From Aminobacter carboxidus (GTDB taxonomy: Bacteria > Pseudomonadota > Alphaproteobacteria > Rhizobiales > Rhizobiaceae): a stretch of DNA of 64,000 bases. The stretch lies in NCBI RefSeq assembly GCF_014863355.1, contig NZ_JACZEP010000005.1, positions 372,001 through 436,000 on the forward strand. Reading direction: 5' to 3'. How positions within the stretch are numbered: the stretch's first letter is position 1; the number at the start of each line of letters is the position of its first letter. Positions 31,899 through 63,630 of this stretch are shown here, piece after piece. Below the pieces are notes generated by a model. It saw nothing but the letters and a program-made list of their open reading frames with translations, was not told the DNA's origin and searched no databases. The position numbers and the translations under genes were made by a program.

Positions 31899-31914
31899 AC
31901 CGACAACTCCCCGT

Positions 31915-32883: not shown

Positions 32884-32970
32884 TGCCCGGCCTCCAAGAT
32901 GCGCCCCCAGCGATCGCCGATGAGCGAACCGAAGTCGAAATTCTAGACACGTGTGATGGCTGGCATGGGC

Positions 32971-34086: not shown

Positions 34087-34127
34087 GCTGGCATTCCCAT
34101 ATTTGAAGATAACGCCTTCAAAGTCCG

Positions 34128-36532: not shown

Positions 36533-36920
36533 TCGCCTCCCGAGCTCCTGTCTGTGCGGACTTGTGCCGCGTTTTTGTCGATCAGGGTCGTGTTGCGCCC
36601 CGCCAACTCGCAAGAGGCTTACGCTTGGCGATCCGGTTTCGTAATTGAAAAAAACGCAATGCCTTTGAATAGAATCGACATGACGCGGCGCCGGCTCGCG
36701 CGATACAACAATCGGAGAATAACTTATCTGGCATCCATGAATTGTAAGCTTTCGTCAACGGCGAAGAACTTGTCATAATCGCGACGACACGTGAACAACT
36801 TCGTTGTTGCGATCTATGCGAAAGCAATCTCTCGACTTCAGATAGCGTTAAATCTGCGCATCTATTGCGCGGCAACATCTCGGACTGCCACGTCGATACG
36901 GCCAACCCGGTGGATCAAGC
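36533..36920. promoter_or_regulatory. Divergent promoter region with a candidate operator
   Basis: These 388 bases between two oppositely directed beta-oxidation genes must hold promoters for both. The inverted repeat AACAAC-TTC-GTTGTT (36794-36808) is the clearest binding-site candidate. It is A+T-richer than the flanking genes. No gene is supported here. Confidence 0.45.
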
Positions 36921-38444
36921 ATGGATAGACGTTTTACCGTTGGCATAGTTGGCGCCGGCGCCATGGGGCGCGGGATCGCGCAGATCGCAGCGGAAGCCGG
37001 GAACAAGGTTCGAATTTTTGATATCGACCCTGAAAATGTGGGCAATGCCATATCCTTTGTCGGCGACATGGTGCACCGACGGATGGAGAAAGGCCGCCTG
37101 TCGGCAAAACAGGCCCAAAACGCACTGAATTCACTGAAAGCGGCATCGTCCTTTGCCACCTTTTCAGATTGCGACCTGGTCATAGAGGCAGCAGTTGAAG
37201 AGCTGTCGGTCAAACATGACATCATGGCGAGGCTGGAGGCCCAGGTTTCCAGAGATTGCGTTCTGGCCACCAACACCTCTTCATTGTCGGTCACAGCCAT
37301 AGCCAGTGCTGTTTCAACACCTGAGCGCGTTGCAGGTTTTCACTTCTTCAACCCGGTTCCTGTCATGAAGCTTGTCGAGGTCATCGGCGGTTTGAAGACA
37401 GCACCGCATGTGCTGGACCTGCTCTGCGGCTGGGCCGTGCAGATGGGTCATCGACCTGTGCGCACAGCCGACACGCCCGGCTTTCTTGTCAACCATGCGG
37501 GTCGTGCCTTCAGCACAGAGGGCCTACGCATCCTGTCGGAAGGGATATGTGGCCACCAGGACATCGACATGGTGATGACGCAGGCGGCCGGATTTCGCAT
37601 GGGGCCGTTCGAACTGTTCGACCTCACGGGGCTGGATGTTTCACACGGCGTGATGGAATCGATCTATCACCGCTATTACGAAGACCCACGCTACCGTCCA
37701 GCGCCAATAGCTGCGCTGCGGGTTGCCGGCGGTGTGCTCGGTCGCAAGACAGGTGGTGGCTTTTACGCCTATGACGGCGACACGGCACAGCGTCAGCCAG
37801 AGCCGGCAGCGCTCGATTGGGCAAAGTTGCCCTGTCCCGTCTGGGTCTCACCAGTGGACCCAGATAGCCGCGACAGGCTTTGCGCGATACTTGGCTCCAT
37901 AGCCGATATCGAGCTGGAGCACGGGACCTCGCCCACCAGCCACGCCTTGATCCTCGTCACCCCCTTTGGACACGACGCCACGCAAAGTGCTGTCGACCAG
38001 GGACTGGATCCGCGTCGGACAATCGCGGTGGACATGTTGTTTCCCGATGCCCGACGGATCACGCTGATGCATTCGCCGGCCACCACATCAGAAATACAGA
38101 TTGCGGCTTGCGCCCTGTTTGCAGCGCTTGGACGCAAGGTCACCATGATCCACGATAGCCCCGGCTTCATCGCCCAGCGCATGCTGGCAATGATCGTCAA
38201 CACCGCCAGTGAAATCGCCGGTCAAAGGATCGCAACGCCGCAACACATCAATGACGGCACAATGCTTGGGCTTGGCTATCCGCATGGCGCCCTGGCGCTC
38301 GGCGATGTGATCGGCCCAAACAGGATACTGCAGATCCTGACGAATCTTTCGGAGCACTACCAGGACGGTCGCTATCGGCCGTCCCAATGGCTACGCCGTC
38401 GTGCGTTGCTGGGCCTCTCCATTGAACATCCCGATCGGCTCTGA
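36921..38444 (+). CDS. 3-hydroxyacyl-CoA dehydrogenase (PaaH-like)
   Basis: A 507-residue NAD-dependent enzyme oxidising a 3-hydroxyacyl-CoA to the 3-oxo form. The Rossmann domain starts [20 protein letters not shown]. It has the catalytic region [20 protein letters not shown] with the conserved H-F-x-N-P and the glutamate of the His-Glu pair, and [21 protein letters not shown] second, repeated C-terminal domain ([20 protein letters not shown], then [19 protein letters not shown]) matches the two-domain PaaH/PaaC type, longer than the 280-residue single-domain enzymes. It is the only plus-strand gene of this beta-oxidation set, facing away from the dehydrogenase operon. Confidence 0.9.
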
Positions 38445-49809: not shown

Positions 49810-51939
49810 TCAGTCGGTGATGCGACTAATAACCAGAGCGTCCACGGCCACCGCACGGGTTGGCAAGACAATTACCGGATTCAGGTCCAGCTCCACGATG
49901 CGCGGGCCTGCTGCAAGCCCCAGTTGCGCGGTCCGAAAGACCAAATCGACAAGCGCTTCCTTGTTCGATGGAGCAGCACCTCGGGCACCTTCAAGCAGCG
50001 GGGAAAGCCTGAGACTTGCGATCATTTCGCGAATGTCGTCCCTGTCTACAGGCAAAGGGCGCGTGGCGGCATCCTTCAGTATCTCGGCATAGATGCCGCC
50101 TGCTCCGACGGTGATCGTGGGGCCAAGGTCGGGATCCTGTGTCAGGCCAACGATCATTTCGACACCCGAGCCGATCTGCTCCTGCATCAAAACCCCTTCG
50201 ATCCTGGCATCGGGAGCATGAGCCTTGGCCTTTGCAATCAGCACATCAAACACACTGGCAGCCATTGTATCGTCGGTTATTCCGAGCTCCACCAATCCGG
50301 CGTCCGATTTGTGCGCGATATCGGGCGAGGCAAGCTTCATGACGACCCGCCCGCCCAAATCCGCGAGCCTGTCGGCAGCTTCCGTGGGCGAGGTCACGAG
50401 GCATTCTTGCGCACGGTCTATCCCAGCACCTTCAAGCAGGGCGGCGGCCTGCCCGCTGTCAAGCAAGCCATTCTGTCGTAACGCTATCTGCTGGGCGACG
50501 GACAACGGCGTTGCTTGCCACGAGCGGCGCCGGAATGCCCCCTTCGCAGCCTCGTAGTCGGCCCGCGCGCGCATGGCGCGGAAGCATTTGCGGAACGAGC
50601 GGAAGATCGGCACGCCGGATTTGACCAGGTCACGATAGCCGGGACTGTCCGTCAGCACCGATCCCCATACCGCAACGATGGGCTTGGGTGAGCGGGGTGC
50701 AAAAGCCAGCACGTCGGCGGCGAAACTGTCGGAGAGCAGTCCAAGTGCTGCTGTCAGCCCAACCACGATTACGTCGACGTTGGGGTCAGCGGCGATGGTT
50801 TCGAGCACTTCGATACGCTGTTGCTGCGGGGCAGCGATGACAAAGCCGCCGCCATTGTCTATCGGATTGGAGACAGTGACGTAGTTGGGCAGGTAGGTGT
50901 AAAGCTTCTCAATCGTCGGCAGCGACATTTCGGGAAAGCTCACGCCATAGCTATCGGCCAGCTCGGCCATCAGCGTCGTTGAGCCCCCCGAAACCGAATA
51001 GAGCGCACAGTTGGGGCCCGGGCCCGCCCGCAGCTTGGCCAGCAGATTGGCTGTTTCGAGCAACTCGTCGAGATCGCGGACCCGGATCACGCCATATTGC
51101 TTGAACAAGCCGTTGATGACCGCATCCGCCCCAGCGAGGTGGCCGGTGTGCGAAGCGGCCATGCGCGCACCTCGCTCGGTCGACCCCATTTTCAGCATGA
51201 CCACCGGCTTGTTCATTGCGTTCGCCGCCTCAAGCGCCAGCCTGAGCTTGGCGATCGACTTGAAGCCCTCGACATAGGCAGCGATGACTGACGTCTGCGG
51301 ATCGTGGGCAAAGTAGTTGATGAAGTCGGCAACCTCGAGATCGACCTCGTTGCCTACCGTCACCCAGCGCCGAAAGGCTGCCCCCATGGCGACGCCCTCG
51401 ACAACGGGCCGGCCGTTGAAGCCGCTTTGGGTGACCAACCCGATCAGGCCGCCGCGATGATGCTCGGGTACGGGAAATTGCTCGAAGGTATTGTCGTTGG
51501 TGTTCGGCCCGATGACGCGCACGCCATGTTCGCGCGCCGCCTCGGCGACCTTGGCCTCAAGAGCAGCACCTTCAGCACCCACTTCCGAAAAACCGGAGCT
51601 GAAGACAATGACGTCGCGCACGCCGCGGCGACCGCAATCGGCGATCACCTGCGGAACGATCGCCGGCGCCACCTTGACCACGGCGAGGTCGATGTAGTCA
51701 GGCACCTCTGCCATCGAAGTGAAGACGGGTACGCCGCCGGCCTCGCCACCGCGCGGATTGACGTAGCAGAATCGAACATCCTCGCCGAAGCGCCGAAACC
51801 AGCTGTGCGCCTGCGGCGACGCATCGACACGGCCGACATAGGCGATCCCGGTCTTCTTGCGGAACATGCGCTGGAGATCGGCCAGACTGAGATCGAGTTC
51901 GTCGCGGGCGTGCCGGATTGCCTGTGGCATGGTCTGCAT
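49810..51939 (-). CDS. NDP-forming acyl-CoA synthetase (acetate-CoA ligase type, single chain)
   Basis: A 709-residue single-chain ADP-forming acyl-CoA synthetase with an N-terminal CoA-binding/ligase-CoA half (HSWFRRFGEDVRFCYVNPRG, FTSMAEVPDYIDLAVVKVAP, VIVFSSGFSEVGAEGAALEA) and a C-terminal ATP-grasp half (RVVMKLASPDIAHKSDAGLV, GVEMIVGLTQDPDLGPTITV). A conserved AASHTGHLAGADAV segment near residue 270 is where I expect the phosphorylated histidine. Some landmarks differ, for example GPNTNDNTFEQFP where others have GPNCxG. ATG 51939 is chosen over the TTG at 51981. It is divergent from the IclR gene and probably activates the acid made in this island. Confidence 0.8.
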   Translation of the reverse strand: MQTMPQAIRHARDELDLSLADLQRMFRKKTGIAYVGRVDASPQAHSWFRRFGEDVRFCYVNPRGGEAGGVPVFTSMAEVPDYIDLAVVKVAPAIVPQVIADCGRRGVRDVIVFSSGFSEVGAEGAALEAKVAEAAREHGVRVIGPNTNDNTFEQFPVPEHHRGGLIGLVTQSGFNGRPVVEGVAMGAAFRRWVTVGNEVDLEVADFINYFAHDPQTSVIAAYVEGFKSIAKLRLALEAANAMNKPVVMLKMGSTERGARMAASHTGHLAGADAVINGLFKQYGVIRVRDLDELLETANLLAKLRAGPGPNCALYSVSGGSTTLMAELADSYGVSFPEMSLPTIEKLYTYLPNYVTVSNPIDNGGGFVIAAPQQQRIEVLETIAADPNVDVIVVGLTAALGLLSDSFAADVLAFAPRSPKPIVAVWGSVLTDSPGYRDLVKSGVPIFRSFRKCFRAMRARADYEAAKGAFRRRSWQATPLSVAQQIALRQNGLLDSGQAAALLEGAGIDRAQECLVTSPTEAADRLADLGGRVVMKLASPDIAHKSDAGLVELGITDDTMAASVFDVLIAKAKAHAPDARIEGVLMQEQIGSGVEMIVGLTQDPDLGPTITVGAGGIYAEILKDAATRPLPVDRDDIREMIASLRLSPLLEGARGAAPSNKEALVDLVFRTAQLGLAAGPRIVELDLNPVIVLPTRAVAVDALVISRITD

Positions 51940-51981
51940 GATGTCGGGGTCTTTCGGTAGGGTTTTCGGATTGACGGGCAA

Positions 51982-51995
51982 TTGGCCTAGGCCAA
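51982..51995. promoter_or_regulatory. Candidate IclR operator in the divergent acs-iclR region
   Basis: Perfect 14-bp palindrome TTGGCCTAGGCCAA (51982-51995), overlapped by GGCCA-AA-TGGCC (51990-52001). It lies 42 bases from the synthetase start and 87 from the IclR start. Confidence 0.45.
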
Positions 51996-52082
51996 ATGGC
52001 CGAATTCAAGTTCCTGGTGAGGTGCCAAGCTGCGCACGAAACGCTCTGCGTCGGCATACCGGCGCAAGGAGAGGAGAGCGCC

Positions 52083-52979
52083 ATGGGATCCGCGGCCAGC
52101 ACGGCGAGACGGGCGGAGTTGGGATTCGAAGAACCCAACGAACTGCTGCGGGGCGTCACCAACGACCGTTCTGGCGGTGTGGTGAAATCCAGTCTGCGCG
52201 TGCTTTCTGTACTCGAATACTTCCAGGCCAATCCGCGGCCGGCGCGAACGACCGAGATCAGCCGTGCGCTCGCCATCCCCAACTCCAGCGCCGACGACAT
52301 TTTGAAGACCTTGGTGCGCACTGGCTACCTCGCCTTCGACCCGCGCCAGAAGGTCTACCTGCCATCCTACCGGATCGTCACGCTCGCCCGGCGCCTCGAA
52401 GGTTCCTTCTTCGGTGGTACGGCGGTTTCCGACTTGATGGACGAGGTTCATCGCCGCACCGGTCTGACAGTGTGGCTGTGTATGCAAAACGACCGCTGGG
52501 TCCAGTGTTCGGCGATCATTCCCGGCTCCGATTTTCACGCAGGCGTCCATGTCGAAGGCTTTACCGATTACGACTGGTCGACAGCGGCGGGCATGGCGCT
52601 TTTGTCGGGCAAGCCGCAGGAGATGGTGGTGGAGATTGCCAAGCGCATGTTCCGCACCGAACCGCCGGCCAGGCGCACAGCCAGCGTGACAGCACTGCTC
52701 GACAAGGTCAGATCGGTTCGCAAACAAGGTTATGCCACCTCCCGCGGCTTCTCGGCGGAAGGCGTGACCGCGGTCGCGGCATCCTTCCAGTCGAAGTTCA
52801 TGCGTATCCCGGTCGCCGTGGGGCTTATCAGCAACGCCCCCGAGGAGAGCCCCGGCACGGCTGCGCTAGGGTCCACCCTCAGGCAGATAGCGACCCGGCA
52901 CCAACGCCTCGCGGAATTGCACCGGGCCAATGACGACCTGCCTATTTCGCCGGAATGGGAATTCCCGCGGCAGCAATGA
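52083..52979 (+). CDS. IclR family transcriptional regulator
   Basis: A 298-residue IclR-type regulator. The winged helix (SSLRVLSVLEYFQANPRPAR, then TTEISRALAIPNSSADDILK TLV) occupies residues about 35-100. It is followed by the GAF-like effector domain (WLCMQNDRWVQCSAIIPGSD, ATSRGFSAEGVTAVAASFQS, IPVAVGLISNAPEE). AGGAGAGGAG upstream of ATG 52083 is a strong start. The last 38 bases overlap the 3' end of the binding-protein gene on the opposite strand. It probably controls the divergent synthetase gene and the carboxylase operon; ligand unknown. Confidence 0.88.
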   Translation: MGSAASTARRAELGFEEPNELLRGVTNDRSGGVVKSSLRVLSVLEYFQANPRPARTTEISRALAIPNSSADDILKTLVRTGYLAFDPRQKVYLPSYRIVTLARRLEGSFFGGTAVSDLMDEVHRRTGLTVWLCMQNDRWVQCSAIIPGSDFHAGVHVEGFTDYDWSTAAGMALLSGKPQEMVVEIAKRMFRTEPPARRTASVTALLDKVRSVRKQGYATSRGFSAEGVTAVAASFQSKFMRIPVAVGLISNAPEESPGTAALGSTLRQIATRHQRLAELHRANDDLPISPEWEFPRQQ

Positions 52980-53967
52980 AGCCCTGGTCGACAACGCGAT
53001 CCTCCGGCATCAGCTCGCTGTAAGACAGCACCTCGGGAATGAGCGCGTAAGTCTTTTGCAGGCGCATGGCGAGATCGGCCGGCATGTAGAGATTAGGATC
53101 GAAGGTCAGCGAGACACCCTTCTTCAGCGTCTCCTCGGGCAGCTGCAGTTCCTCGAGCATGATCTTCATGATCTCAGGGTTGTTATGGTAGTCGCCCTGG
53201 AGATAGGTGCGCGTCGTGCGTACCAGCGCCCGCATCACCGCCTCACCGACGTCGCGGCGTTCCTTGAGCAGGCGCGGGCCAAAGCTCCACGAGCCTGCCG
53301 ACATCTCCGGTCCCTGGACGAAGGCCAGCGACACCTTGGATTCATCAGCCTTCTGCCAGATGGAATCGATCAGATAACCGAAATTGACGGCACCGTTCTC
53401 AAGCGCCACCAGGATGTCCGGCGAAGCCATGGTCTGGAACTTCACGTCCTTGAGCGACAGGCCGACTTTCTCCAGTTCCGTCTGCAGGAAGTAGGAGGCC
53501 GTCGAGCCAAGGCCGATGGCGCTGGCGACGGTCTGGTCCTTGAACAGATCGACGGTGAACTTGCGGCCGTTGAGAAAGGCGTTGTTGGCCCAGATCCCCT
53601 GCTTCGACGCCGGCGACTGGACGAAGAGCGGCGCCACCACACGAATGTCGGCCCCACTGGCGATGGCGTTGAAGACGGCCGCGCTCGGCTGGCCGCCAAG
53701 CACGTCAGCGCGACCTGTGGACAGGAGCACGATGCCGTCGCTCGACTTGGCGAAGGTGTATTCGATGTCGATGTTTTCCTTGTCGAACTCACCCATTCGC
53801 TCGGCAAGGAGCATCGGTATGTATGCCTCGACCTTGGCGGTCATGGCGACGATCACCTTCTCGCGCTGCGGCAGTGGCTTGGGCGCGTCAGAGCCCTCGG
53901 CATGGACGCCGAAGCTGACCCCGATCATGGCGGCGGCAAGCGCCAGCTTCTTCCATAGAGATTTCAT
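52942..53967 (-). CDS. NitT/TauT-type ABC transporter substrate-binding protein
   Basis: A 341-residue periplasmic protein of the SsuA/TauA/NMT1 fold. Signal peptide MKSLWKKLALAAAMIGVSFG then VHAEG cleaves near residue 24. The mature part has VIVAMTAKVEAYIPMLLAER, MGEFDKENIDIEYTFAKSSD, and ADVLGGQPSAAVFNAIASGA. The partner ATPase and permease genes are about 7 kb away on the plus strand at 61110 and 61964. GGGAGG precedes ATG 53967. It is the last gene of the carboxylase operon and probably brings in the aromatic or aliphatic ketone/acid substrate. Such binders typically accept sulfonates, phthalate-like or nitrile compounds. Confidence 0.85.
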   Translation of the reverse strand: MKSLWKKLALAAAMIGVSFGVHAEGSDAPKPLPQREKVIVAMTAKVEAYIPMLLAERMGEFDKENIDIEYTFAKSSDGIVLLSTGRADVLGGQPSAAVFNAIASGADIRVVAPLFVQSPASKQGIWANNAFLNGRKFTVDLFKDQTVASAIGLGSTASYFLQTELEKVGLSLKDVKFQTMASPDILVALENGAVNFGYLIDSIWQKADESKVSLAFVQGPEMSAGSWSFGPRLLKERRDVGEAVMRALVRTTRTYLQGDYHNNPEIMKIMLEELQLPEETLKKGVSLTFDPNLYMPADLAMRLQKTYALIPEVLSYSELMPEDRVVDQGFIAAAGIPIPAK

Positions 53968-54025
53968 TGCTTCCTCCCTGTTGATCCTCTTGGCCGCCGG
54001 CCTCCACCGGTCGGCAAACTCATCA

Positions 54026-54823
54026 TCAGCCGGCGTCGTAGACCAGCTTCCAGCTCGACCCGGCGAGTTGCCTTATGCGCGGTCCACCGAAGTGGAATGC
54101 CGGGTCGCTAGGTGGCTCGGCGAACGAGATGACCGCTGTATCCGGAGCTGGCGGCAACGCCGCCCAGATCCGCCTGCCGGCTGTGTCGATGTCGACGCGA
54201 TTGGCAATGTTGCGCTTAAGGCTCGCCACGCGCGGATAAAGCTCGGGATCGACTTCGGATGCGGCGCGCAGGGCCGGCGTGTCGACGCCGCCCGGCCGCA
54301 CGGCCACCACCCACGGTCCGGTTCCGCCGCGGCTTTCACGCTCGCGCGCGACAACTTCGACCCAGTGTTCGATCGCAACCTTGGAGGCACAGTAGGTGGC
54401 AAGACCTTCGAGCGCAGCCACCGCTGCACCAGACGAGAGCATTACCAGTCCTGCCTCGTAGCCCGGACGGCAAGCGTCGAGAAACGCTTCGGCAAGCACG
54501 AAGGGTGCGGCGAGATTTGCAAGCACGCCCTTTTCATACGTCTGCGAGGAGACCTTGCCGACCACGCCGATCGCTTCGGAATAATATGCGTTGTGGATGA
54601 AGATGGCGCGTTTGCCGCGAAACGCAGCCAATTCCCGAATGAAATGGCCGCGGATACGATCCCACGTCGAGGGGTCGGCCAGGTCGAACGTGACGCTCTC
54701 GTAATCGGGGTGCTTGCGGCGCGACAGATTGATGACTCGGGCTTTGGCGAAAGGAACGTTGCGGGCAAGCCCGAGGCCGACGCCCTGCGTCGCACCGCTG
54801 ATCCAGACGATAGTGTCGTGCAT
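54026..54823 (-). CDS. SDR family NAD(P)-dependent oxidoreductase
   Basis: A 265-residue short-chain dehydrogenase. It begins with a dinucleotide-binding WISGATQGVGLGLARNVPFA (the usual TGxxxGIG is SGATQGVG), and has the active-site serine in VMLSSGAAVAALEG, catalytic YCASKVAIEHWVEV and the loop WVVAVRPGGVDTPALRAASE. The typical NNAG is replaced by HNAYYSE. It may oxidise the secondary alcohol precursor to the ketone that the adjacent carboxylase uses, as 1-phenylethanol dehydrogenase does in ethylbenzene degradation. It starts 15 bases after the thiolase stop, so is cotranscribed. Confidence 0.82.
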   Translation of the reverse strand: MHDTIVWISGATQGVGLGLARNVPFAKARVINLSRRKHPDYESVTFDLADPSTWDRIRGHFIRELAAFRGKRAIFIHNAYYSEAIGVVGKVSSQTYEKGVLANLAAPFVLAEAFLDACRPGYEAGLVMLSSGAAVAALEGLATYCASKVAIEHWVEVVARERESRGGTGPWVVAVRPGGVDTPALRAASEVDPELYPRVASLKRNIANRVDIDTAGRRIWAALPPAPDTAVISFAEPPSDPAFHFGGPRIRQLAGSSWKLVYDAG

Positions 54824-54838
54824 CGTTAGCCCTCCATC

Positions 54839-56002
54839 TCAGTTGCGCAGCACGACCGCGGAGGTCGGGCCCAGATCGCTTGAGCTCACAAAGCAGCAGT
54901 CGGCGTTGTCGACCTGCCCGGTCGAGCTGCCGCGCATCTGCTTCACGCCTTCGCTGATCATGTTGAACCCATGCAGATAGACCTCCGAGAGGCTGCCGCC
55001 GCCAGTGTTGACCGGCAGGCGCCCACCAAGCGCGATGCCGCCGTCCTCGGTGAAGGCCGCGCCTTCGCCTCGCCCGCAAAAGCCATAGCCTTCAAGCGTG
55101 AAGAACACCTCTGGCGTGAAGGCGTCGTAGAACTGCGCCACCTTGATGTCGGAGGCGCGGAAGTCGCTCTGGCGCCACAGCGACTTCGCGCAGGTCGCAG
55201 CCTGCGAGCGCATCGGATCGGCCGTGAAGTAGTTGGCAAGGATGGCACTGCCGCCGTCAAAGCCCTGAGCTGCGGCATGGATGTAGACAGGCCTGGTGCG
55301 GCAATCCCTGGCGCGCTCCGACGAGGTTACGACGAATGCGATCGCGCCGTCGGTCTCAAGGCAACAATCAAACAGGCACAACGGCTCGCTGACCCAGCGC
55401 GCGGCGAAATAGTCCTCGCGGCTCATCGGCTTGGCATACATGAAGGCATTGGAATTGCGATTGGCATGGCTTCGGAATGCCAATGCGACATTGGCGAGAT
55501 GATCGCGGGTGGCCCCGAACTCGTGCATGTATCGGGTGTACATCACGCCGACCTCGTCGACCGGCCGGATGATGCCCCAGGGTCTTAACCAGGTGTCGCG
55601 GCTGCCCTGGATGCGCTGTTCCAGTTGGGCCCAGACCCGGCTTGCCCGGCCGCTGCGCTTGCGCGAGCGCCAACCAACCACGACGTTGGCCTGGCCGGTG
55701 GCGATTGCCATAGCGGCGTGACCGACAGTGCCGCAACCGCCATGACCGCCGGCGGGCATCTGCGCATAATAGGTCACCTCCTTCATGCCGAGGTCGCGCG
55801 CAATGTCATGCTGGAAGACATTTTCCATGTTGAGCGAACACAGCCCATCGACCTCCGACGGCGAGATGCCCGCGTCATCGAGTGCCGCCTTGATCGCCAT
55901 ACAGGCAAGCTGCTCCTCGCTCTGCGCCATCGCCTTGCCAAAAGCAGTCTCGCCAATGCCAACGATTGCCGTGCGGTCCTTGAGGAAGATCGTATCGGTC
56001 AT
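54839..56002 (-). CDS. Thiolase (SCP2/acetyl-CoA acetyltransferase-like)
   Basis: A 387-residue thiolase-family protein of the SCP-x type that works with a small DUF35 protein. It begins RTAIVGIGETAFGKAMAQSE, and has EVDGLCSLNMENVFQHDIAR, GGHGGCGTVGHAAMAIATGQ, and the C-terminal PVNTGGGSLSEVYLHGFNMI (GGx-histidine-type thiolase end). The nucleophilic cysteine is likely in GGCGTVGHA. It overlaps the DUF35 gene by four bases (ATGA at 55999-56002), as this pair usually does. It probably cleaves the 3-oxoacyl-CoA from carboxylation and CoA activation to acetyl-CoA plus a shorter acyl-CoA. Confidence 0.85.
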   Translation of the reverse strand: MTDTIFLKDRTAIVGIGETAFGKAMAQSEEQLACMAIKAALDDAGISPSEVDGLCSLNMENVFQHDIARDLGMKEVTYYAQMPAGGHGGCGTVGHAAMAIATGQANVVVGWRSRKRSGRASRVWAQLEQRIQGSRDTWLRPWGIIRPVDEVGVMYTRYMHEFGATRDHLANVALAFRSHANRNSNAFMYAKPMSREDYFAARWVSEPLCLFDCCLETDGAIAFVVTSSERARDCRTRPVYIHAAAQGFDGGSAILANYFTADPMRSQAATCAKSLWRQSDFRASDIKVAQFYDAFTPEVFFTLEGYGFCGRGEGAAFTEDGGIALGGRLPVNTGGGSLSEVYLHGFNMISEGVKQMRGSSTGQVDNADCCFVSSSDLGPTSAVVLRN

Positions 56003-56454
56003 GGCTTGAGACTCTCGGATGCGCGCGGCATCCAGCGCGGCAGAGTGATGTCGTCGGAGACGGCGGTGAAGGTGATATCGACCGGCAGGCCGATGCGGAT
56101 GGCCGAAGCTGGAACGCTGTTGATGGAAGCGTCGGGTGCGGCGACCAGGCTGCCGACCATGCGGATATGTGGGCGTTCTTCGAGTTCGACGACGATCATC
56201 GGATATGGCACCAGATTTTGGAAACCTGGCAGCGTCGGGCCGTGGGCAATACCGAACGACCACACTTGCCCCCTGCCCGCCGCTTCGACCCATTCTGTTT
56301 CGTCATGGGCGCACTGAGCGCAGAACGGATGGGGCGGAAACTGACAATGGGAGCAGGCCTTGCAGCGTTGCACGACCAGGCGCTTGTCACGGGTCGCGTC
56401 CCAAAAACCCTTTGTGTCGGGATCGTCGCCGTAGGGCAAAGGGATGGCTGTCAT
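55999..56454 (-). CDS. Zn-ribbon OB-fold protein (DUF35), thiolase partner
   Basis: A 151-residue protein with an N-terminal rubredoxin-like zinc ribbon and a C-terminal OB fold. The ribbon is VQRCKACSHCQFPPHPFCAQ C with the CxxC-CxxC spacing; the OB-fold part contains GRGQVWSFGIAHGPTLPGFQ and YPMIVVELEERPHIRMVGSL. DUF35 proteins form a heteromeric complex with SCP-x thiolases and help bind the CoA substrate. It overlaps the thiolase gene (ATGA) on one side and the HyuB gene on the other (ATGA at 56451-56454), so all are translationally coupled. Confidence 0.87.
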   Translation of the reverse strand: MTAIPLPYGDDPDTKGFWDATRDKRLVVQRCKACSHCQFPPHPFCAQCAHDETEWVEAAGRGQVWSFGIAHGPTLPGFQNLVPYPMIVVELEERPHIRMVGSLVAAPDASINSVPASAIRIGLPVDITFTAVSDDITLPRWMPRASESLKP

Positions 56455-58646
56455 GGTCTTGCCTCTGTCGGTTTGCCGAGGGCCGGCAATTCAATCGCCT
56501 CGAGTACCGGTTCACCTGCGAGCGCGACCTGGACGTCGACCTGTCGGGCACAGCCGGGACAATAGAAATGGCGGATGCGGAAACGCTCACTTCCGGGATA
56601 GCGATCGGTGATGGCCGATCGCTCGCCTGCCGCCGCTTCGTAAACGTCAAGGCAAGCATAGATGCCGGCACCCACGTTGCAGATGCCATGGCCGCAGCTG
56701 GCGCATACTACCTGTTCGCCGCCGGGCGCTTCGACAGCCCGGAAATGGCTGGAAAGTCGACGTCCGCTGACCGGACCTTTACCCTTGCGCGGCTTGCGAC
56801 CGCCGAGCCGGGCCCTGAGGCGCGCTTGTCGCTCCGCCTCCGACGCGGCATAGTCGATCACTGCCCGGTCGTCGTCGAGGCGCAGGACCACCCCAAAGTC
56901 GCGCAACGCACCGCCGACGCTGACAAGGCCATCGAGCACATCAACAGCAACAGCAGTTGGATCGCGCTCGAGCGGATCGCCGAAGCCACCCCCGCCTTGC
57001 GAGGACGTGACCAGTATCTGATCGGGGTGGAGCCTGGTCGCAGCATCCGGCAGCCGAACATCAGTGACATCCGCAAGATCCGACCAGCCTTTCGAGTCTG
57101 CTATAGGCACGTCGCTGCTCATGATGGCAAAGCCGCTCGGCAATCCGGGCTCGCCACCGGCCGCCCCCATGGTCGCTGGATGCTGCAATCCTTGCGCCAT
57201 GGACAACAGAGCGATCGAACGCTGCGTCTGATGCGGACGATAGGCATGCATCGCGCCGACACCGCCACGGCGCCTGCCCGGCCCGCCTGAATCGGCAAGT
57301 TCGCGGCGCGTCAGATAGAGCACCGGATAATATGCTTCGTTGGTTTCGAGGTTCGAGGGCGTAGCACCCGGTGACGTCGCAGTGCCTGATGTGTCGCTTC
57401 CATCGGCATTGCAGGTGGCGCCGCCGCCGCCGCTCAGCTCATCCAGAAACAGCGTGGTGAAGGGACTGCCATCGAGCCTGTGTCCGGAAATCGACATGCC
57501 ACCGGCACCAGACGACTGCGACGACGCCATGGCCATGTGCGCATGCGCTGCCGAACCGTCGAGCAAGCGGGCCAGGCAACCGCTGACGCAATTGCGGATC
57601 GCCTGGGCCGAGGTACCCGTGCTCATCGCCACGCCAGCCGGCCATTCGGCATCGACCACAGACCGCTTGCGGGTGCGGAGGTCGATCGTCCGCCAGATGG
57701 CGCCCGGCATCCACGGCAGTCCCTGGCAGATATGGACGAGCACTGCCGCCATGGTGAAGTTGGCCAGTGTCGGATAGGTGGCGTTGACCGCTCCTGGCGC
57801 TTCATCGTCACTCGCGGTGAAGTCGAAGGTGAGCCTGTCGCCCGTCTTGGCCATGACGAGCCGGACCGCATAGACCTGGTTCGGCAGATAGTCGGCGCCG
57901 CTGCGCTGCTCATGCTGGATAAAAGAGTTTTCGCGCCAGACGCCGTCAGGCAGTTCGGCGAGGCGGCGGCGGAATGCCGCCTCAGTTGAAGCAAGCAGCC
58001 TGTCCATCGCCTCGACGAGGCCGCTGGTGCCATAGGCGGCGCAGAGCTCAAGCACCTGGCGCTCGGATGCACGGTTCGCCGCGATCTGGCCCAGCAAGTC
58101 GAGCGCGTTGAGCTCGGGCGTTCGGGTGCGGGCAAGATAGTCACGCTCGATATCGCGGCGGATGCGGCCCGCCTCGACGATCTTGATCGGCGGGATCGGT
58201 ATGGCTTCGTCGAAAATCGAGCGGGCGGCATAGTTGAAGCCGCCGCTGACCGGCCCACCGACATCCGGCTCGTGCACTGTCGATCCTGCCCAGGCGACCA
58301 GCCGCTCGCCATCAAAGAACGGCGCCACCAGCGTGACGTCGGGCTGATGCAGGGTCCCGAGATAGGGGTCATTGGTGAGAAACTGGTCGCCGGGACCAAT
58401 GCCCGGGTTTTCGCCGTAGCGATCAAGGATGTCGCGGACGATCAGGTTGAGCGAGGTTGATTGAACGAGAATAAATTTGCTGCATGAGACCACTGTGCCG
58501 TCGGCGGTCATGATTGCGGTGTTGAAGTCGCTCGCCTCGGACGCGATCTGCGAACCTGAGACACGGACAAGCGTCTCGCCGGCGTCGGCATTGATGGCCT
58601 CCAGCCGGTGGCGGATGATTTCGAGTTCGATCGGGCCGACCGTCAT
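56451..58646 (-). CDS. HyuB-type hydantoinase/carboxylase subunit fused to an acetone carboxylase gamma-like domain
   Basis: A 731-residue protein: residues 1-about 580 are HyuB/oxoprolinase-type (VGPIELEIIRHRLEAINADA, then VSGSQIASEASDFNTAIMTA, GDQFLTNDPYLGTLHQPDVT). HyuB proteins are commonly 520-580 long; the extra C-terminus (from about 600) contains VCASCGHGICNVGAG and HFYCPGCARQVDVQVALAGE, which resemble the zinc-binding acetone carboxylase gamma subunit. This supports an ATP-dependent carboxylase acting on a ketone rather than a hydantoinase or 5-oxoprolinase. Four-base overlaps (ATGA) join it to HyuA upstream and DUF35 downstream. Confidence 0.82.
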   Translation of the reverse strand: MTVGPIELEIIRHRLEAINADAGETLVRVSGSQIASEASDFNTAIMTADGTVVSCSKFILVQSTSLNLIVRDILDRYGENPGIGPGDQFLTNDPYLGTLHQPDVTLVAPFFDGERLVAWAGSTVHEPDVGGPVSGGFNYAARSIFDEAIPIPPIKIVEAGRIRRDIERDYLARTRTPELNALDLLGQIAANRASERQVLELCAAYGTSGLVEAMDRLLASTEAAFRRRLAELPDGVWRENSFIQHEQRSGADYLPNQVYAVRLVMAKTGDRLTFDFTASDDEAPGAVNATYPTLANFTMAAVLVHICQGLPWMPGAIWRTIDLRTRKRSVVDAEWPAGVAMSTGTSAQAIRNCVSGCLARLLDGSAAHAHMAMASSQSSGAGGMSISGHRLDGSPFTTLFLDELSGGGGATCNADGSDTSGTATSPGATPSNLETNEAYYPVLYLTRRELADSGGPGRRRGGVGAMHAYRPHQTQRSIALLSMAQGLQHPATMGAAGGEPGLPSGFAIMSSDVPIADSKGWSDLADVTDVRLPDAATRLHPDQILVTSSQGGGGFGDPLERDPTAVAVDVLDGLVSVGGALRDFGVVLRLDDDRAVIDYAASEAERQARLRARLGGRKPRKGKGPVSGRRLSSHFRAVEAPGGEQVVCASCGHGICNVGAGIYACLDVYEAAAGERSAITDRYPGSERFRIRHFYCPGCARQVDVQVALAGEPVLEAIELPALGKPTEARP

Positions 58647-60757
58647 GCGAATTCCTCGATCCTGGACGACAGCGAGCGCGTGTGGGCAGAATACACGGCG
58701 ATGGTGAGATTGCCGTCCTCGTCAATTGTCGCCATCTGGCCGGGATGGATCACTGCCGTTGTCTGCTCGGATTCGATGAAGGCAGGCCCTGATATCTCCG
58801 CGCGGGCGCCAAGTTCGTCCCACAAAAAAACAGGCGTTTCCCACTCACGGCCCAGGAACCAGGCCTTCCGGTACCGGGACGGCAGAGGCACGCCGCGCGT
58901 CAGCGCTGGAGCGGCATTGGGCATGGCAATCGGCATGCGCGCCTCGACAACGATGGCCGCGAGTTCGATGGCGCTTTTGGCGTGGGCTGAGCCCCGGCCC
59001 ACGATCTGCTCGTAACGGGATCGGAATGCCGCTTCAGCATTGGCGATGTCGGCGCTTCCGAGCCGCGACACTGGTACTTCGATGTCGATGCGGTGCAATT
59101 GGCGGGAGAATTTCAAGCCGATCTTGCGCTTGATCTCGATGGCACCTGACAGGCCTGCCTCCACCAGCCCTTCAAATTCGCCTCGAGCGCGCTGCTCGAG
59201 CCGACCGAATGCTTCGATCTCGCCGTCGCGGAAATCCTGAAGCGGTCGGGCGGGAAGCTCGATCTCATAGGATGTCCGCAAATCGCTGGAGGCTGCACCC
59301 CAGGCGGAAAACTCCGGCGCAAGGCGCGGTATGACGATTGCCTTGACACCGATCTCGGCGGCGTAGCGCCCGACATGCTGGGGGGCCGCTCCGCCATAGG
59401 CGTAAAGCACGAAGTTGCGAGGATCATGACCGCGCTGAACGCTGGCACGACGCACGAGATCGGCCATCTGTGCATTGGCGACGCGCAATATCCCTTCGGC
59501 CGCCGCTTCAACTTCCAAGCCGAGCCTGCTGGCTAGCGGCGCAATTGCTGATCGCGCCGCTGCGCGATCGAGCGTGAGTGCACCGCCAAGGCGATCAAGA
59601 TGGCCCAGAACAACGGCTGCATCGGTCACTGTGGGTTGCGCACCGCCGCGGCCGTAGCAGGCCGGGCCGGGCATCGAGCCCGCGCTTTGCGGGCCGACGC
59701 GCAACACGCCAAGCTCGGGATCGACGTAAGCTATGCTGCCGCCACCCGTTCCGATCGAAGAAAGGTCGATTGCCGGAACGGCAAGGCTGTGCCGGTCGAT
59801 GCGTGGCCGTGAAGCGGCAGGCAAAGCGCCCCCCACGACTAGGCCGACATCGAAGCTGGTCCCGCCAACATCGGTGGCGAGCACATCGGCATGCCCGAGC
59901 CGTGCGCCGACCTGGCGAGCCGCCATGATGCCTCCCACCGGTCCTGACTGAAGCAGATGTACCGGTGCATCGCACAGCGAGCTTGCGCGGCGCACGCCGC
60001 CGCCCATGGTCACGATCAGGAACAGGCCGCCAAATCCCTCATTGCGCAGTGCCTCATCGAGCGAGGTCAGGTAGTCGCGGACAAGCGGCGCGACATAGGC
60101 ATTCATGGCGACGGTCGCGGTCCGCTCGTATTCACCGATGCGCGGGGCAAGCTCGCTCGACAGCGTCACATGCAGGCTTGGCGCCTCTTCGGCGACGAGC
60201 TCGGCGAGGCGGCGTTCGTGACTGCCATTGACGGGCGACCACATCAGCGCGATGCCGATCGCCTCGGCACCTCGCGCAACGAGCTGGCGGATCGAGAGGC
60301 GGGCCTGCTCTTCGTCCAGCGGCACGATGACATTGCCGTCGACATCGATGCGTTCGCGCACACCGATGATGCGGCGGCGGGGAACAAGCAGCTCCGGCTT
60401 ACGCCATTTGAGCGCATTGATGCTGTCCTCGTCGGGCAGGCCGTGCACCTTGTTGGAGCGTGCCATCGGCAGCGTCGCCTCGAAGCCTGCAGTTACAAGC
60501 AGGCCGACCTTGGCACCTGTACCCGTCAGAAGCGCATTGAGGCCAACCGTAGTGCCGTGCGACAGGATGTCGGTGGTGTCGAGGATTTCGCGCAGGCTCT
60601 TGCCTAGCGAGCGCGAGGCGACGCCAAGCGAGGTAATCACGCCTTCCATCAGCCGCCCGTGTGTCGTCAGCGCCTTGCCGACGCCGACGCGTCCATCCGC
60701 AGTCAGGATGACCGTGTCGGTAAAGGTGCCGCCAGTGTCGATGCCGACGATCTGCAT
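58643..60757 (-). CDS. HyuA-type hydantoinase/carboxylase subunit
   Basis: A 704-residue HyuA-type subunit with an acetate/sugar kinase-like ATPase domain. The N-terminal phosphate loop VGIDTGGTFTDTVILTADG, the DTTDILSHGTTVGLNALL segment, and ADVLATDVGGTSFDVGLVVG are conserved, with NFVLYAYGGAAPQHVGRYAA near residue 450. It is the catalytic ATP-using half of acetone/acetophenone carboxylases as well as of hydantoinases. The ATG at 60757 is used; an upstream TTG is not supported. It is the first gene of the six-gene operon (HyuA, HyuB, DUF35, thiolase, SDR, SBP). Confidence 0.87.
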   Translation of the reverse strand: MQIVGIDTGGTFTDTVILTADGRVGVGKALTTHGRLMEGVITSLGVASRSLGKSLREILDTTDILSHGTTVGLNALLTGTGAKVGLLVTAGFEATLPMARSNKVHGLPDEDSINALKWRKPELLVPRRRIIGVRERIDVDGNVIVPLDEEQARLSIRQLVARGAEAIGIALMWSPVNGSHERRLAELVAEEAPSLHVTLSSELAPRIGEYERTATVAMNAYVAPLVRDYLTSLDEALRNEGFGGLFLIVTMGGGVRRASSLCDAPVHLLQSGPVGGIMAARQVGARLGHADVLATDVGGTSFDVGLVVGGALPAASRPRIDRHSLAVPAIDLSSIGTGGGSIAYVDPELGVLRVGPQSAGSMPGPACYGRGGAQPTVTDAAVVLGHLDRLGGALTLDRAAARSAIAPLASRLGLEVEAAAEGILRVANAQMADLVRRASVQRGHDPRNFVLYAYGGAAPQHVGRYAAEIGVKAIVIPRLAPEFSAWGAASSDLRTSYEIELPARPLQDFRDGEIEAFGRLEQRARGEFEGLVEAGLSGAIEIKRKIGLKFSRQLHRIDIEVPVSRLGSADIANAEAAFRSRYEQIVGRGSAHAKSAIELAAIVVEARMPIAMPNAAPALTRGVPLPSRYRKAWFLGREWETPVFLWDELGARAEISGPAFIESEQTTAVIHPGQMATIDEDGNLTIAVYSAHTRSLSSRIEEFA

Positions 60758-61109
60758 GTGCAATCTCGCAAATCATTCTTCAAGATGCAGTCCGCCATCG
60801 GCCGAACGCCTGGCGCTCACCGTTCGTGGCCTGCTGTGACCGCCAGAAACCCGGCGCGGGATTGAAACAACATTGCGGAGCACAACTTTCGCCGCAGCGC
60901 ATCCGCCGTCCAAAGCAGCAATGATTTCCACCACTTGAGACACGTCGATTAGGCGTCGAACGGAGCAGGCTGTCAAACGCAACCGGCAATTTTCCGGCTA
61001 TCCGGAAAATCTGCGGAAGCGATTGTTTTGACGTTGCTGGCCGGCCTAGCCTTTCGTCCACGAATGCCTGCGGGCGCCCACCGAACTGCACTTCCTGACG
61101 GAGCGACAG
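60758..61109. promoter_or_regulatory. Divergent promoter region of the carboxylase operon and the ABC transporter
   Basis: The 352 bases between oppositely directed operons must carry promoters for both. The only clear symmetric site is ATTTTCCGG-CTAT-CCGGAAAAT (60989-61010), a candidate IclR operator. No coding frame is supported. Confidence 0.55.
60989..61010. promoter_or_regulatory. Candidate IclR-type operator
   Basis: Perfect 9-bp inverted repeat ATTTTCCGG / CCGGAAAAT separated by CTAT. IclR-family operators are short palindromes of this kind. It is 99 bases before the ATPase start and 231 bases before the HyuA start. Confidence 0.5.
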
Positions 61110-61931
61110 ATGAACTCATTGCGCATAACCGACGTTGCGACGGCCATGCCGCTGGTCGCCGAAGCAGCCGCCAAGATCGAGGTGCGGGGCGTGCGCAAGC
61201 GTTATGACGCCAACGGCAATGTCGAAGCGCTCGCCGGTGTCGACCTCAACATACGGAGCGGCGAATTCGTCTGCCTCGTTGGTCCGTCAGGTTGCGGCAA
61301 ATCGACGGTGCTCAGGATGATCGCCGGCCTGCACAAGCCAAGCGAGGGCGAGATCCTGGTGCACGCCAGCGGCACGCGAGCGGTCCCCACCGCCATGGTG
61401 TTCCAGAATTACAATGTGTTTCCGTGGAAGACGATCCAGGCCAATGTCCGCTTCGGCCTGGAGATGACCGGCATGGCCGGCGCCGAGGCCGACAGGCGCG
61501 CGACCGCGTGGCTCGGCAAAATGGGTCTTGCCGACTTCGCCCACGCCTATCCGCCGGCGCTCTCCGGCGGCATGCTGCAGCGCGTCGCCATCGCCCGCGC
61601 CATGGCGGTCGAGCCCGAAATCCTTTTGATGGACGAACCTTTCGCCGCGCTCGATGCCCAGCACCGCCGTATCCTGCAGGACGAATTGCTGACGCTTTGG
61701 CAAGAGGACAGACGCACTGTCGTCTTCGTCACCCACAGCCTCGAAGAAGCGCTGCTGCTCGGCGACAGGGTCGTTGTGATGTCGGCGCGGCCGGGACGCA
61801 TCATCGCCGAATTCGAGGTGCCGTTCGCGCGGCCGCGTGCGCCGGAAATCCGCGGTGAGCCGATGTTCGCCAAGCTCGAACAGGAAATCTGGAACCTGCT
61901 GCGCGAGCAGGTCGGCAAGCACGCTGCCTGA
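61110..61931 (+). CDS. NitT/TauT-type ABC transporter ATP-binding protein (TauB/SsuB)
   Basis: A 273-residue ATPase with Walker A LVGPSGCGKSTVLRMIAGLH, Q-loop MVFQNYNVFPWKTIQANVRF, signature LSGGMLQRVAIARAMAVEPE, Walker B ILLMDEPFAALDAQ and H-loop FVTHSLEEALLLGDRVVVMS. It starts the plus-strand unit divergent from the carboxylase operon, while its binding protein is encoded in the latter; that split suggests both are controlled from the same 352-bp region. The permease follows 32 bases after the stop. Confidence 0.9.
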   Translation: MNSLRITDVATAMPLVAEAAAKIEVRGVRKRYDANGNVEALAGVDLNIRSGEFVCLVGPSGCGKSTVLRMIAGLHKPSEGEILVHASGTRAVPTAMVFQNYNVFPWKTIQANVRFGLEMTGMAGAEADRRATAWLGKMGLADFAHAYPPALSGGMLQRVAIARAMAVEPEILLMDEPFAALDAQHRRILQDELLTLWQEDRRTVVFVTHSLEEALLLGDRVVVMSARPGRIIAEFEVPFARPRAPEIRGEPMFAKLEQEIWNLLREQVGKHAA

Positions 61932-61963
61932 AAATCAAGATCGACGCGGAGGAGGCGACGAGC

Positions 61964-62800
61964 ATGGAAAAGACCATCACTATCAGGCCGGGCGAAGCAG
62001 AGCGCGACCCGCGCGGTTATGCACGCCGGGCGCAAAGGCAGGAAAAGGTGCTGGCAATGGCCACGCCTGTCGTGTTCTTCATCCTCTGGGAGATCTGTGC
62101 CCGCGCCGGCCTTCTCGATTCCCGCTTTTTCCCTGCACCAAGCGCGATCTTCATGTCGGCGGTCGAGATGACGCGCACCGGCATGTTGCAGCAAGATGTG
62201 ATGGCAAGCGCGCTTCGCGTGCTTGCAGGTTTCGCCATCGGCGTCCTCACCGGGTTGGGCGCCGCGCTGTTGCTCGGCCTGTCGCGCCTGACACGCGCAG
62301 CGCTGGAGCCATTCCTCACCGCGCTATACACGGTGCCAAAGCTTGCCCTGCTGCCACTGCTGCTGTTGATCTTCGGCCTAGGCGAACTGCCAAGCGTGCT
62401 GCTCGTCGGCATGACCGTGTTCTTCCTGGTCTGGATCCAATGCATGGAGGCGGTGCTCGCCATCCCCGAGAACTACCACGAGGCGGCCCGTTCGTTTGGC
62501 GCCAAGGGTTGGAACATGTTCAGGCACGTCACCTGGCCGGCGCTGCTGCCGCAGCTGTTCATTTCCATGCGCATCGCCATCGGCACGGCGGTGCTGGTCA
62601 TCGTCGGCGTCGAGTTCGTCCAGGCAAGCCAGGGCATAGGCTACCGCATCTGGCATTCGTGGTCGCTGTTTCAAGCCAACCGGATGTATGTCGGCATCTG
62701 CACGGTGGCCTTGATGGGTTTCCTGTTCAGTTCGCTGGTGCGCTGGCTGGGACATGTGATGCTGCCCTGGACGGCGTCGTCGACCAAGAGGTCCCGCTAA
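61964..62800 (+). CDS. NitT/TauT-type ABC transporter permease (TauC/SsuC)
   Basis: A 278-residue permease with about six helices. Coupling segment: VLAIPENYHEAARSFGAKGW followed by NMFRHVTWPALLPQLFISMR, with the TauC-type EAA loop. The hydrophobic first helix after the polar N-terminus (VLAMATPVVFFILWEICARA) is typical. GGAGGAGG-like sequence upstream of ATG 61964 (CGGAGGAGGCGACGAGC) supports the start. It completes the importer together with the binding protein at 52942 and ATPase at 61110. Confidence 0.9.
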   Translation: MEKTITIRPGEAERDPRGYARRAQRQEKVLAMATPVVFFILWEICARAGLLDSRFFPAPSAIFMSAVEMTRTGMLQQDVMASALRVLAGFAIGVLTGLGAALLLGLSRLTRAALEPFLTALYTVPKLALLPLLLLIFGLGELPSVLLVGMTVFFLVWIQCMEAVLAIPENYHEAARSFGAKGWNMFRHVTWPALLPQLFISMRIAIGTAVLVIVGVEFVQASQGIGYRIWHSWSLFQANRMYVGICTVALMGFLFSSLVRWLGHVMLPWTASSTKRSR

Positions 62801-62919
62801 GTCCAGCGGAACGACCGAAGTATCCTCAGATGCAATTGCTCGATGCTCCGGGCGGCGTTTGGCGAAATGGGCATCTTTCTTCGTCTGCCCTTCTAGCGGT
62901 GACCGGTGGGAGGCCACGA

Positions 62920-63630
62920 ATGAGTTCCAAGATCTACATCCACGAATACATCGACATCATTGGCGCCAACCGGGCTAACTACTTCAGGCATATGACGACC
63001 GACTGGGGTCGGCACAGTGCCGAACGCCATCAGAAGTGCTTCGGTGTCTGGGGCACGCTCGGCAGTACCGGGCAGTGGCCTCAGGTGGTCAACCTGTGGG
63101 AGTACGACGACTGGGAGAGCCTTGCAGCCAGTTTCGCGCATGAGACAGGCACCGACACCATGCAGGACAAAGCCCTGGAGACATGGTGGCTCACCGCGCA
63201 AAGCTACCGTAGCGGCGGCTTCGACCGCGTGTTGATTGCAGCTCCTTGCTCGCCCCCTATCGAACAGCTTTGTGCCGAAGGCACCGTCGTGGGTGCCAAG
63301 GTGTTTTTGCATGAGATCGTCAGCATCAAGTCAGGCTTTGCACAGGACTATCTGCAACTGGTGTCGGAGCATTGGCTCGGGCCGGCGAAGGAACTTGGGC
63401 TCCACCTCGTCGGCGCATTTCGCACCGCCATGCGCAACGACTCGGAAGTGGTGCTTATCTGGGCAATGCAGGAATGGAGCGACTGGGCCCGTGTAAGCAA
63501 GGCGCAAGGCAGCCAGCCATTCCTGACATGGCGCGCCAAGACCAAAGATATCGCTCTCGACTGGGTCGGGCATCTGATGTGTTCGGCACCTGCCTCTCCG
63601 CTCAAGACTGGCGTCCAGCCTTGTGCATGA
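62920..63630 (+). CDS. NIPSNAP-like/dimeric alpha-beta barrel protein
   Basis: A 236-residue soluble protein with two repeated ferredoxin-like segments. The first begins IYIHEYIDIIGANRANYFRH and continues VVNLWEYDDWESLAASFA; the second begins VFLHEIVSIKSGFAQDYLQL and continues VVLIWAMQEWSDWARVSKAQ. These match the NIPSNAP/antibiotic-monooxygenase-like (ABM) dimeric alpha/beta barrel. GGGAGG at 62908-62913 fixes ATG 62920. It lies 119 bases after the permease stop and probably belongs to the same unit; such proteins often accompany aromatic or terpene degradation genes. Role unknown. Confidence 0.72.
   Translation: MSSKIYIHEYIDIIGANRANYFRHMTTDWGRHSAERHQKCFGVWGTLGSTGQWPQVVNLWEYDDWESLAASFAHETGTDTMQDKALETWWLTAQSYRSGGFDRVLIAAPCSPPIEQLCAEGTVVGAKVFLHEIVSIKSGFAQDYLQLVSEHWLGPAKELGLHLVGAFRTAMRNDSEVVLIWAMQEWSDWARVSKAQGSQPFLTWRAKTKDIALDWVGHLMCSAPASPLKTGVQPCA

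Follow-up and report, generated by a model that had tools for sequence, protein, structure and literature searches.

A conserved Aminobacter gene cluster with a gamma-bearing HyuA/HyuB enzyme and a putative retro-aldolase suggests an undescribed route of ketone or acid breakdown

The D-H-D-H metal ligands and the ATP motifs of HyuA/HyuB-type enzymes are common to hydrolases and carboxylases (our residue comparison and the excerpted text of PMC8453981). A further subunit, gamma, is present in the acetone and acetophenone carboxylases (Acx and Apc) and, according to the excerpted text of Weidenweber et al. 2017 (PMC5214803), absent from any hydantoinase-type (Hyd) complex; the same text lists a four-cysteine site among the signatures and calls a direct part of gamma in carboxylation unlikely. 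For the aldolase TcLtp2 the catalytic residues are Y294 and Y344 and replacing the His of its YDHF motif costs about 14-fold, while the aldolase Sal has a Gly where SCP2 thiolases carry the nucleophilic Cys (excerpts of Rolfe et al. 2025, PMC12329534). Here we describe a cluster of 11 genes in a 64,000-nucleotide stretch of Aminobacter carboxidus DNA (the window; contig NZ_JACZEP010000005.1, positions 372,001 to 436,000) that encodes HyuA, HyuB with a fused gamma domain and a thiolase-fold protein with a DUF35 partner, together with a nucleoside diphosphate (NDP)-forming acyl-coenzyme A (CoA) synthetase, a short-chain dehydrogenase/reductase (SDR), an ATP-binding cassette (ABC) importer, an IclR-family regulator and a NIPSNAP-type protein (Table 1). 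We put at roughly 47% the probability that a ketone carboxylase and a retro-aldolase work together here, in either order.

The first half of this proposal rests on the tail of HyuB, whose gene occurs in six of ten same-genus genomes (that of the window included), the five other copies being 84-94% identical. Residues 638-720 match PF08882 (Acetone_carb_G) with 28.4 bits (cut-off 21), and cysteines 648, 651, 696 and 699 are kept in all six genus copies. We built an AlphaFold2 model of HyuB (18-row alignment, mean predicted local distance difference test score (pLDDT) 83.6) whose fold matches, ordered by E-value, run from an N-methylhydantoinase to the beta-type subunits of Apc and Acx and to CapB, and whose highest query template modelling (TM) score belongs to the acetone carboxylase subunit 5m45_A (0.77). 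Weaker, separate matches, given in the search output without residue ranges, were found to the acetone carboxylase gamma chain 5m45_C (E 1.8e-4; gamma chains 1.8e-4 to 5.6e-4) and to Apc gamma 5l9w_C (E 2.4e-3, 2.1 Å over 81 columns). The gamma-like tail noticed in the initial annotation is thus a genuine acetone-carboxylase gamma domain.

The position of HyuB among its relatives also sets it apart from the hydantoinase/caprolactamase clade. HyuA and HyuB sequences came from 80 named loci, plasmid matches and further genomes; 115 HyuB and 108 HyuA open frames passed the score and length filters. Without L167, which comes from the same genome as L032, and with PDB references included, they gave quick trees of 117 beta and 111 alpha rows in which characterised 5-oxoprolinases and IaaCE are not represented. 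By our own gamma profile the domain is fused in 59 of the beta rows, encoded by a separate gene nearby in 24 and absent from 34; these counts are no census, because the sequences were collected for their resemblance to gamma-bearing proteins, and some of the 34 may be misses or tails with lost cysteines. CapB, the N-methylhydantoinase and 22 more rows without gamma, 24 of the 34 in all, make up one starred clade of the beta tree. The window HyuB is not part of it. Together with L035, L036, L037 and L052 it forms a starred group of five, where it sits alone on a long branch, and forcing it together with Hyd was rejected by the approximately unbiased (AU) test (p 0.0216 with 24 Hyd rows, p 0.0365 with 25).

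HyuA/HyuB could not be assigned to a described carboxylase either. Union of the window beta subunit with Acx was rejected (AU p 0.0243), and the beta tree and this test together exclude an assignment as Acx. An assignment as Apc is rejected as well: the module has no alpha' gene, the scores fall far under the equivalog cut-offs (ApcC 370 of 1500 bits, ApcD 194 of 1500 bits) and both quick trees place the window apart from Apc, as judged by tree position. No NCBIfam equivalog cut-off was reached by HyuA or HyuB. In direct scores HyuA gave 300 bits with AcxB, 372 with CapA, 373 with N-methylhydantoinase and 364 with ApcC. The Apc-alpha fingerprint R/KERiDsxG was also tried as a discriminator; the window reads RERIDVDG, but in its loose form the pattern is also found in the hydantoinase clade (5 of 24 rows) and among the gamma/other sequences (10 of 77, counting the window), against 3 of 7 for Apc and none of 3 for Acx, and being spread across the groups it is uninformative.

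Other loci show further gene arrangements. A Chloroflexi locus (L035:7973-9905) carries two genes between hyuA and hyuB-gamma, one resembling a DNA methyltransferase by eye, as if a restriction-modification unit had been inserted in the operon. A haloarchaeal plasmid (L034:5801-10117) has hyuA-hyuB and a separate gene annotated as acetone carboxylase subunit gamma, and a Mycobacterium branderi plasmid (L033:5177-17847) combines hyuB-gamma/hyuA with five cytochrome P450 genes and a 2,4'-dihydroxyacetophenone dioxygenase-family gene.

The second half of the proposal concerns the cleavage of a carbon-carbon bond. The thiolase-fold protein has Ltp2 chain 6ok1_A as its best solved relative (296 bits) and exceeds the cut-off of the NF005892 'lipid-transfer protein' model (491.8 bits, cut-off 469); for its DUF35 partner the best PDB match comes from that structure too, namely ChsH2 (6ok1_B). 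Its Y292 and Y342 align with Y294 and Y344 of TcLtp2, Gly85 stands at the position of the thiolase Cys, YDAF takes the place of HDCF and GHP is missing at the aligned place, with Y292, Y342, Gly85 and Ala294 invariant in all six genus copies. The protein thus lacks the nucleophilic Cys and the HDCF/GHP motifs of an SCP2 thiolase and shares with Ltp2-type enzymes the Tyr pair and the DUF35 partner, without the His of YDHF. Because the Cys is lost, both Ltp2 tyrosines are kept and the DUF35 partner is of the ChsH2 type, the 'thiolase' is by its sequence probably an aldolase, and cleavage would then be aldolytic.

The initial annotation had instead proposed the logic of ethylbenzene/acetophenone degradation, in which an alcohol is turned to a ketone, carboxylated, activated with CoA and cleaved by thiolysis. 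The gamma domain and the position of HyuB outside Hyd lend support to the carboxylation part of that proposal, whereas its thiolase step has to be abandoned and the enzyme is neither Apc nor Acx. Thiolytic cleavage is unsupported because Gly85 replaces the nucleophilic Cys and Y292/Y342 are present. In L035 HyuA/HyuB-gamma and DUF35 do have beside them a thiolase-fold protein with CASGG, HDCF and GHP intact, but the window protein shows Gly85 and YDAF in every genus copy and no aligned GHP; the catalytic residues contradict the thiolytic ethylbenzene-type scheme for this cluster, and we regard it as highly improbable.

A context survey of 93 loci outside the window's own genome, many of them short or cut by contig ends, found a thiolase-fold/DUF35 pair near HyuA/HyuB in three (L035, L089 and L092). 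The L089 and L092 proteins have no thiolase Cys; L089 reads YDDY and has no second Tyr, and L092 reads YDCF. The synthetase has a relative in one locus (L071), the binding protein in one (L085), and permease and ATPase both have relatives in five (L037, L050, L054, L086 and L105, far apart in the last). Among the loci examined the full gene combination is confined to this genus. On plasmids, the nearest relative of the aldolase (47.9% identity) belongs to a Novosphingobium gene cluster that also encodes FadD3, acyl-CoA dehydrogenases and hydratases. No FadD3, acyl-CoA dehydrogenase or hydratase gene lies within the window's module, and for this reason ketoreduction would be a natural source of a 3-hydroxyacyl-CoA.

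We therefore considered how a carboxylase and a retro-aldolase could be joined. In the more likely order HyuA/HyuB-gamma would carboxylate a ketone to a 3-oxo acid, the NDP-forming synthetase would convert the acid to its CoA ester, the SDR would reduce the 3-oxoacyl-CoA to a 3-hydroxyacyl-CoA and the aldolase-DUF35 pair would split it by a retro-aldol reaction into an aldehyde and acetyl-CoA; the SsuA/TauA-like system may import an anionic precursor and the IclR protein may control both divergent operons. Carboxylation first gives every enzyme a step; as a specific sequence of reactions it is nevertheless a tentative and, on balance, unlikely proposal. In the reverse order, which we judge less probable again, an imported branched 3-hydroxy acid would be converted to its CoA ester and split by the aldolase into a ketone and an acyl-CoA, after which HyuA/HyuB-gamma would carboxylate the ketone to a 3-oxo acid for processing by the SDR or other enzymes. 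Conservation of both Ltp2 tyrosines suits this order, as do an ABC importer, which fits an anionic acid, and the hydroxy-acid CoA ligases among the synthetase's relatives (far under cut-offs). Ltp2 chemistry produces a ketone and an acyl-CoA. The reverse order, however, leaves the SDR without a clear step, and the module has no thiolase to use the 3-oxo acid. Both orders depend on gamma meaning carboxylase.

Several observations weigh against a carboxylase working with a retro-aldolase, or against carboxylation first. Ltp2 turns a tertiary alcohol into a ketone, a reaction more in keeping with the reverse order, and a small ketone would need no ABC importer. Ala294 occupies, in all six copies, the place of the His of the Ltp2 YDHF motif. 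The top fold match of HyuB by E-value is the N-methylhydantoinase 9h03_A, and by target-normalised TM-score it is CapB (0.85). The highest-scoring NCBIfam model of HyuA is that of caprolactamase CapA (489 bits), and the placement among hydantoinases that the initial annotation named as refuting its proposal does not apply to HyuB, whereas for HyuA a forced union of the window alpha subunit with Hyd is not rejected (AU p 0.301). Caprolactamase, too, requires bicarbonate (excerpt of PMC8453981), so family resemblance alone makes no carboxylase.

These points on HyuA, and the shared metal ligands and ATP motifs, favour the main rival, in which HyuA/HyuB-gamma would be an ATP-dependent hydrolase opening a lactam, imide or hydantoin-like ring and the other enzymes would cleave the ring-opened acid as its CoA ester. 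A CoA ester might itself be the substrate of such a hydrolase (compare the 2-oxoindoleacetyl-CoA lactamases in the excerpt of PMC5214803). NMT1-type importers suit N-heterocycles. In the operons of gamma-bearing relatives a script found 148 neighbouring proteins, of which 100 were scanned with Pfam; the scan passed over five loci as well as short frames, those at contig starts and some others. Isochorismatase was the second commonest family (5 of 100, including L036, L037 and L067), beside aldehyde dehydrogenases (6), SDRs (4), FAD-binding_3 (4) and class III CoA-transferases (3), a mixture by which the neighbour evidence points several ways. L036 and L037, which lie close to the window HyuB in that tree of beta subunits, both have isochorismatase-type hydrolases, L036 has an arginase-family gene as well, and L037 has relatives of the permease (69 bits) and the ATPase (184 bits) directly behind HyuA. 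Such isochorismatase- and arginase-type neighbours suit hydantoin-type pathways and would be expected of C-N chemistry.

Against the hydrolase stand the gamma domain, which the excerpted account cited above reports for no Hyd complex, the beta tree, which rejects union with Hyd, and a Pfam scan that found no amidase, isochorismatase or arginase-family gene in the module. Weighing both sides we consider ring hydrolysis a real possibility, if one we would not favour; the probability beyond the carboxylase-aldolase core, hydrolysis and thiolysis falls to readings outside those considered. The gamma-bearing HyuA/HyuB operons with isochorismatase-type hydrolases (L036:7546-14310, L037:9956-17837 and L067:5966-10966) are of interest in their own right: if their enzymes have a hydantoin-type role, as they possibly do, the rule that gamma marks carboxylases would be broken.

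Whichever chemistry applies, the 11 genes are one real module, as the initial annotation had grouped them; the genes that it named are present where it placed them, with one correction, that the 'thiolase' has the fold of that family without its catalytic residues. On the minus strand hyuA, hyuB and the DUF35 and thiolase-fold genes overlap by 4 bases each and are followed by the SDR and binding-protein genes; the synthetase gene lies beyond the oppositely read IclR gene, and the ABC ATPase, permease and NIPSNAP-type genes run in the other direction. The window and four same-genus copies agree in the order and orientation of all 11 genes, and in the remaining copy (L194) 10 of 11 were found, the NIPSNAP gene being the one without a match. 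Ratios of nonsynonymous to synonymous substitution rates (dN/dS) were 0.04-0.12 across the 11 genes (window against one copy, L193), as under purifying selection. The left border of the module matches the result for the aminotransferase gene that adjoins the window's synthetase, which was not found beside the synthetase in the five other copies, where the same-genus stretches reach 2.4-3.0 kb past it. Three other queried flanking genes lie wholly or partly outside these stretches and so give no control for the border, and the conserved genes alone define the right border. A search for the replicon marker RepC (PF03428) found its gene on the module-bearing contig in three of the six genomes, so a repABC replicon carries the module in at least some cases.

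Conserved linkage and a conserved palindrome also support the earlier claim that the cluster has its own importer and regulator. The gap of 346 bases between hyuA and the ABC ATPase gene contains TTTTCCGGCTATCCGGAAAA, which is exact in five of six copies and altered in L194; allowing up to 1 mismatch, it occurs nowhere else in the 6.29-Mb genome. A pattern search of the window alone with 3 mismatches gave 1 match against 0.32 expected, which is no evidence; exactness and conservation are the evidence for this palindrome. A second palindrome, TTGGCCTAGGCCAA, is exact in four of six copies (window, L190, L191 and L192). Either may be an operator bound by the IclR protein.

The synthetase is NDP-forming by its domains (CoA-binding, ligase and ATP-grasp), its best PDB relatives are 3-hydroxypropionate- and 4-hydroxybutyrate-CoA ligases, and it reached no equivalog cut-off. 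His278 of its SHTG motif, presumably functional, is present in all six copies. The true start of the synthetase is probably downstream of the TTG, as four of the five other copies align over a shorter part. In the SDR we take YCASK to be the YxxxK motif. The binding protein scored 30.7 bits with SsuA_fam (cut-off 163.5) and a PDB search gave weak matches alone, with no close solved relative. Top NCBIfam scores were SaoA, PhnT2 and nitrate for the ATPase, with TauB in the first six, and SaoP, SsuC and TauC for the permease, none over its cut-off. The NIPSNAP-type gene stands in the importer operon of five of six genus copies, under purifying selection.

Table 1. Features of the gene cluster, in window coordinates.
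Feature	Position	Strand	Basis
NDP-forming acyl-CoA synthetase	49810-51981	-	Pfam domains CoA-binding, Succ_CoA_lig, ATP-grasp_5
Palindrome TTGGCCTAGGCCAA, possible operator	51982-51995		between divergent synthetase and IclR genes
IclR-family regulator	51996-52979	+	PF09339 and PF01614
Periplasmic binding protein of ABC importer (NMT1, SsuA-like)	52942-53967	-	PF09084, 28.2 bits
Short-chain dehydrogenase/reductase (SDR)	54026-54823	-	PF00106; YCASK in translation
Thiolase-fold protein, Ltp2-type retro-aldolase residues	54839-56002	-	6ok1 Ltp2, 296 bits; residues
DUF35 partner (zf-ChsH2 + OB fold)	55999-56454	-	Pfam; best PDB match 6ok1_B ChsH2(DUF35)
HyuB (beta) subunit, metal ligands D40, H100, D103, H125	56451-58646	-	PF02538; residues; fold
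Fused acetone-carboxylase gamma domain, HyuB aa 638-720	56487-56735	-	PF08882 over cut-off; Cys648/651, Cys696/699
HyuA (alpha) subunit, ATP motifs DTGGTFTD, DVGGT, GSMPGP	58643-60763	-	Pfam; motifs
Palindrome TTTTCCGGCTATCCGGAAAA, candidate operator	60990-61009		between the two divergent operons
ABC importer ATPase	61110-61931	+	PF00005
ABC importer permease	61964-62800	+	PF00528
NIPSNAP-type protein	62920-63630	+	PF07978, 24.5 bits (cut-off 22.3)

Two further loci of the window lie outside the module. Positions 30540-38444 hold class III CoA-transferase, acyl-CoA dehydrogenase, MmgE/PrpD and 3-hydroxyacyl-CoA dehydrogenase genes, and positions 22809-24674 encode a bacterial protein with a MATCAP (tyrosine carboxypeptidase) domain (PF08014, 312.5 bits).

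From a comparative point of view the cluster shares parts with several described systems. Among the open-licence PMC papers listed in literature searches, titles and abstract starts held nothing on point about a gamma fusion or a carboxylase combined with a retro-aldolase, and acetovanillone carboxylase HpeCBA was set aside as biotin-dependent and not homologous to the ATP-dependent acetophenone enzyme (excerpts of PMC9618137 and PMC13101465). With AcxABC the window has in common alpha, beta and gamma without alpha' or epsilon, the four-cysteine site of gamma, the beta fold and the gene order alpha-beta-gamma (order rule in the excerpt of PMC5214803); unlike AcxABC it has gamma fused to beta and a retro-aldolase and an NDP-forming synthetase adjoining, its HyuA scores lower against AcxB than against CapA, N-methylhydantoinase or ApcC, and the beta union is the one rejected above. 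ApcABCD(E) with its benzoylacetate-CoA ligase likewise brings a CoA ligase together with alpha, beta and gamma parts in one cluster, whereas the window module has no alpha' or epsilon gene, an NDP-forming ligase and scores short of the equivalog cut-offs. CapAB and N-methylhydantoinase resemble the window in their alpha and beta subunits, ATP motifs and D-H-D-H metal site but are without gamma, and HyuB falls outside their clade while union of HyuA with it is not rejected. The steroid retro-aldolase complex Ltp2-ChsH2(DUF35) (6ok1) shares both catalytic tyrosines, the absence of the thiolase Cys and an adjacently encoded DUF35; in contrast, the window has YDAF and not YDHF, a stand-alone DUF35 without a hydratase domain, and a module that lacks genes for a hydratase or an acyl-CoA dehydrogenase. 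The pairing of an uncharacterised relative of ketone carboxylases with a protein that resembles an aldolase suggests an undescribed breakdown route for some ketone- or acid-type compound, in a compact conserved unit with regulator and importer that bears on whether gamma marks carboxylases and on whether ketone (or lactam) breakdown can finish in a retro-aldol step.

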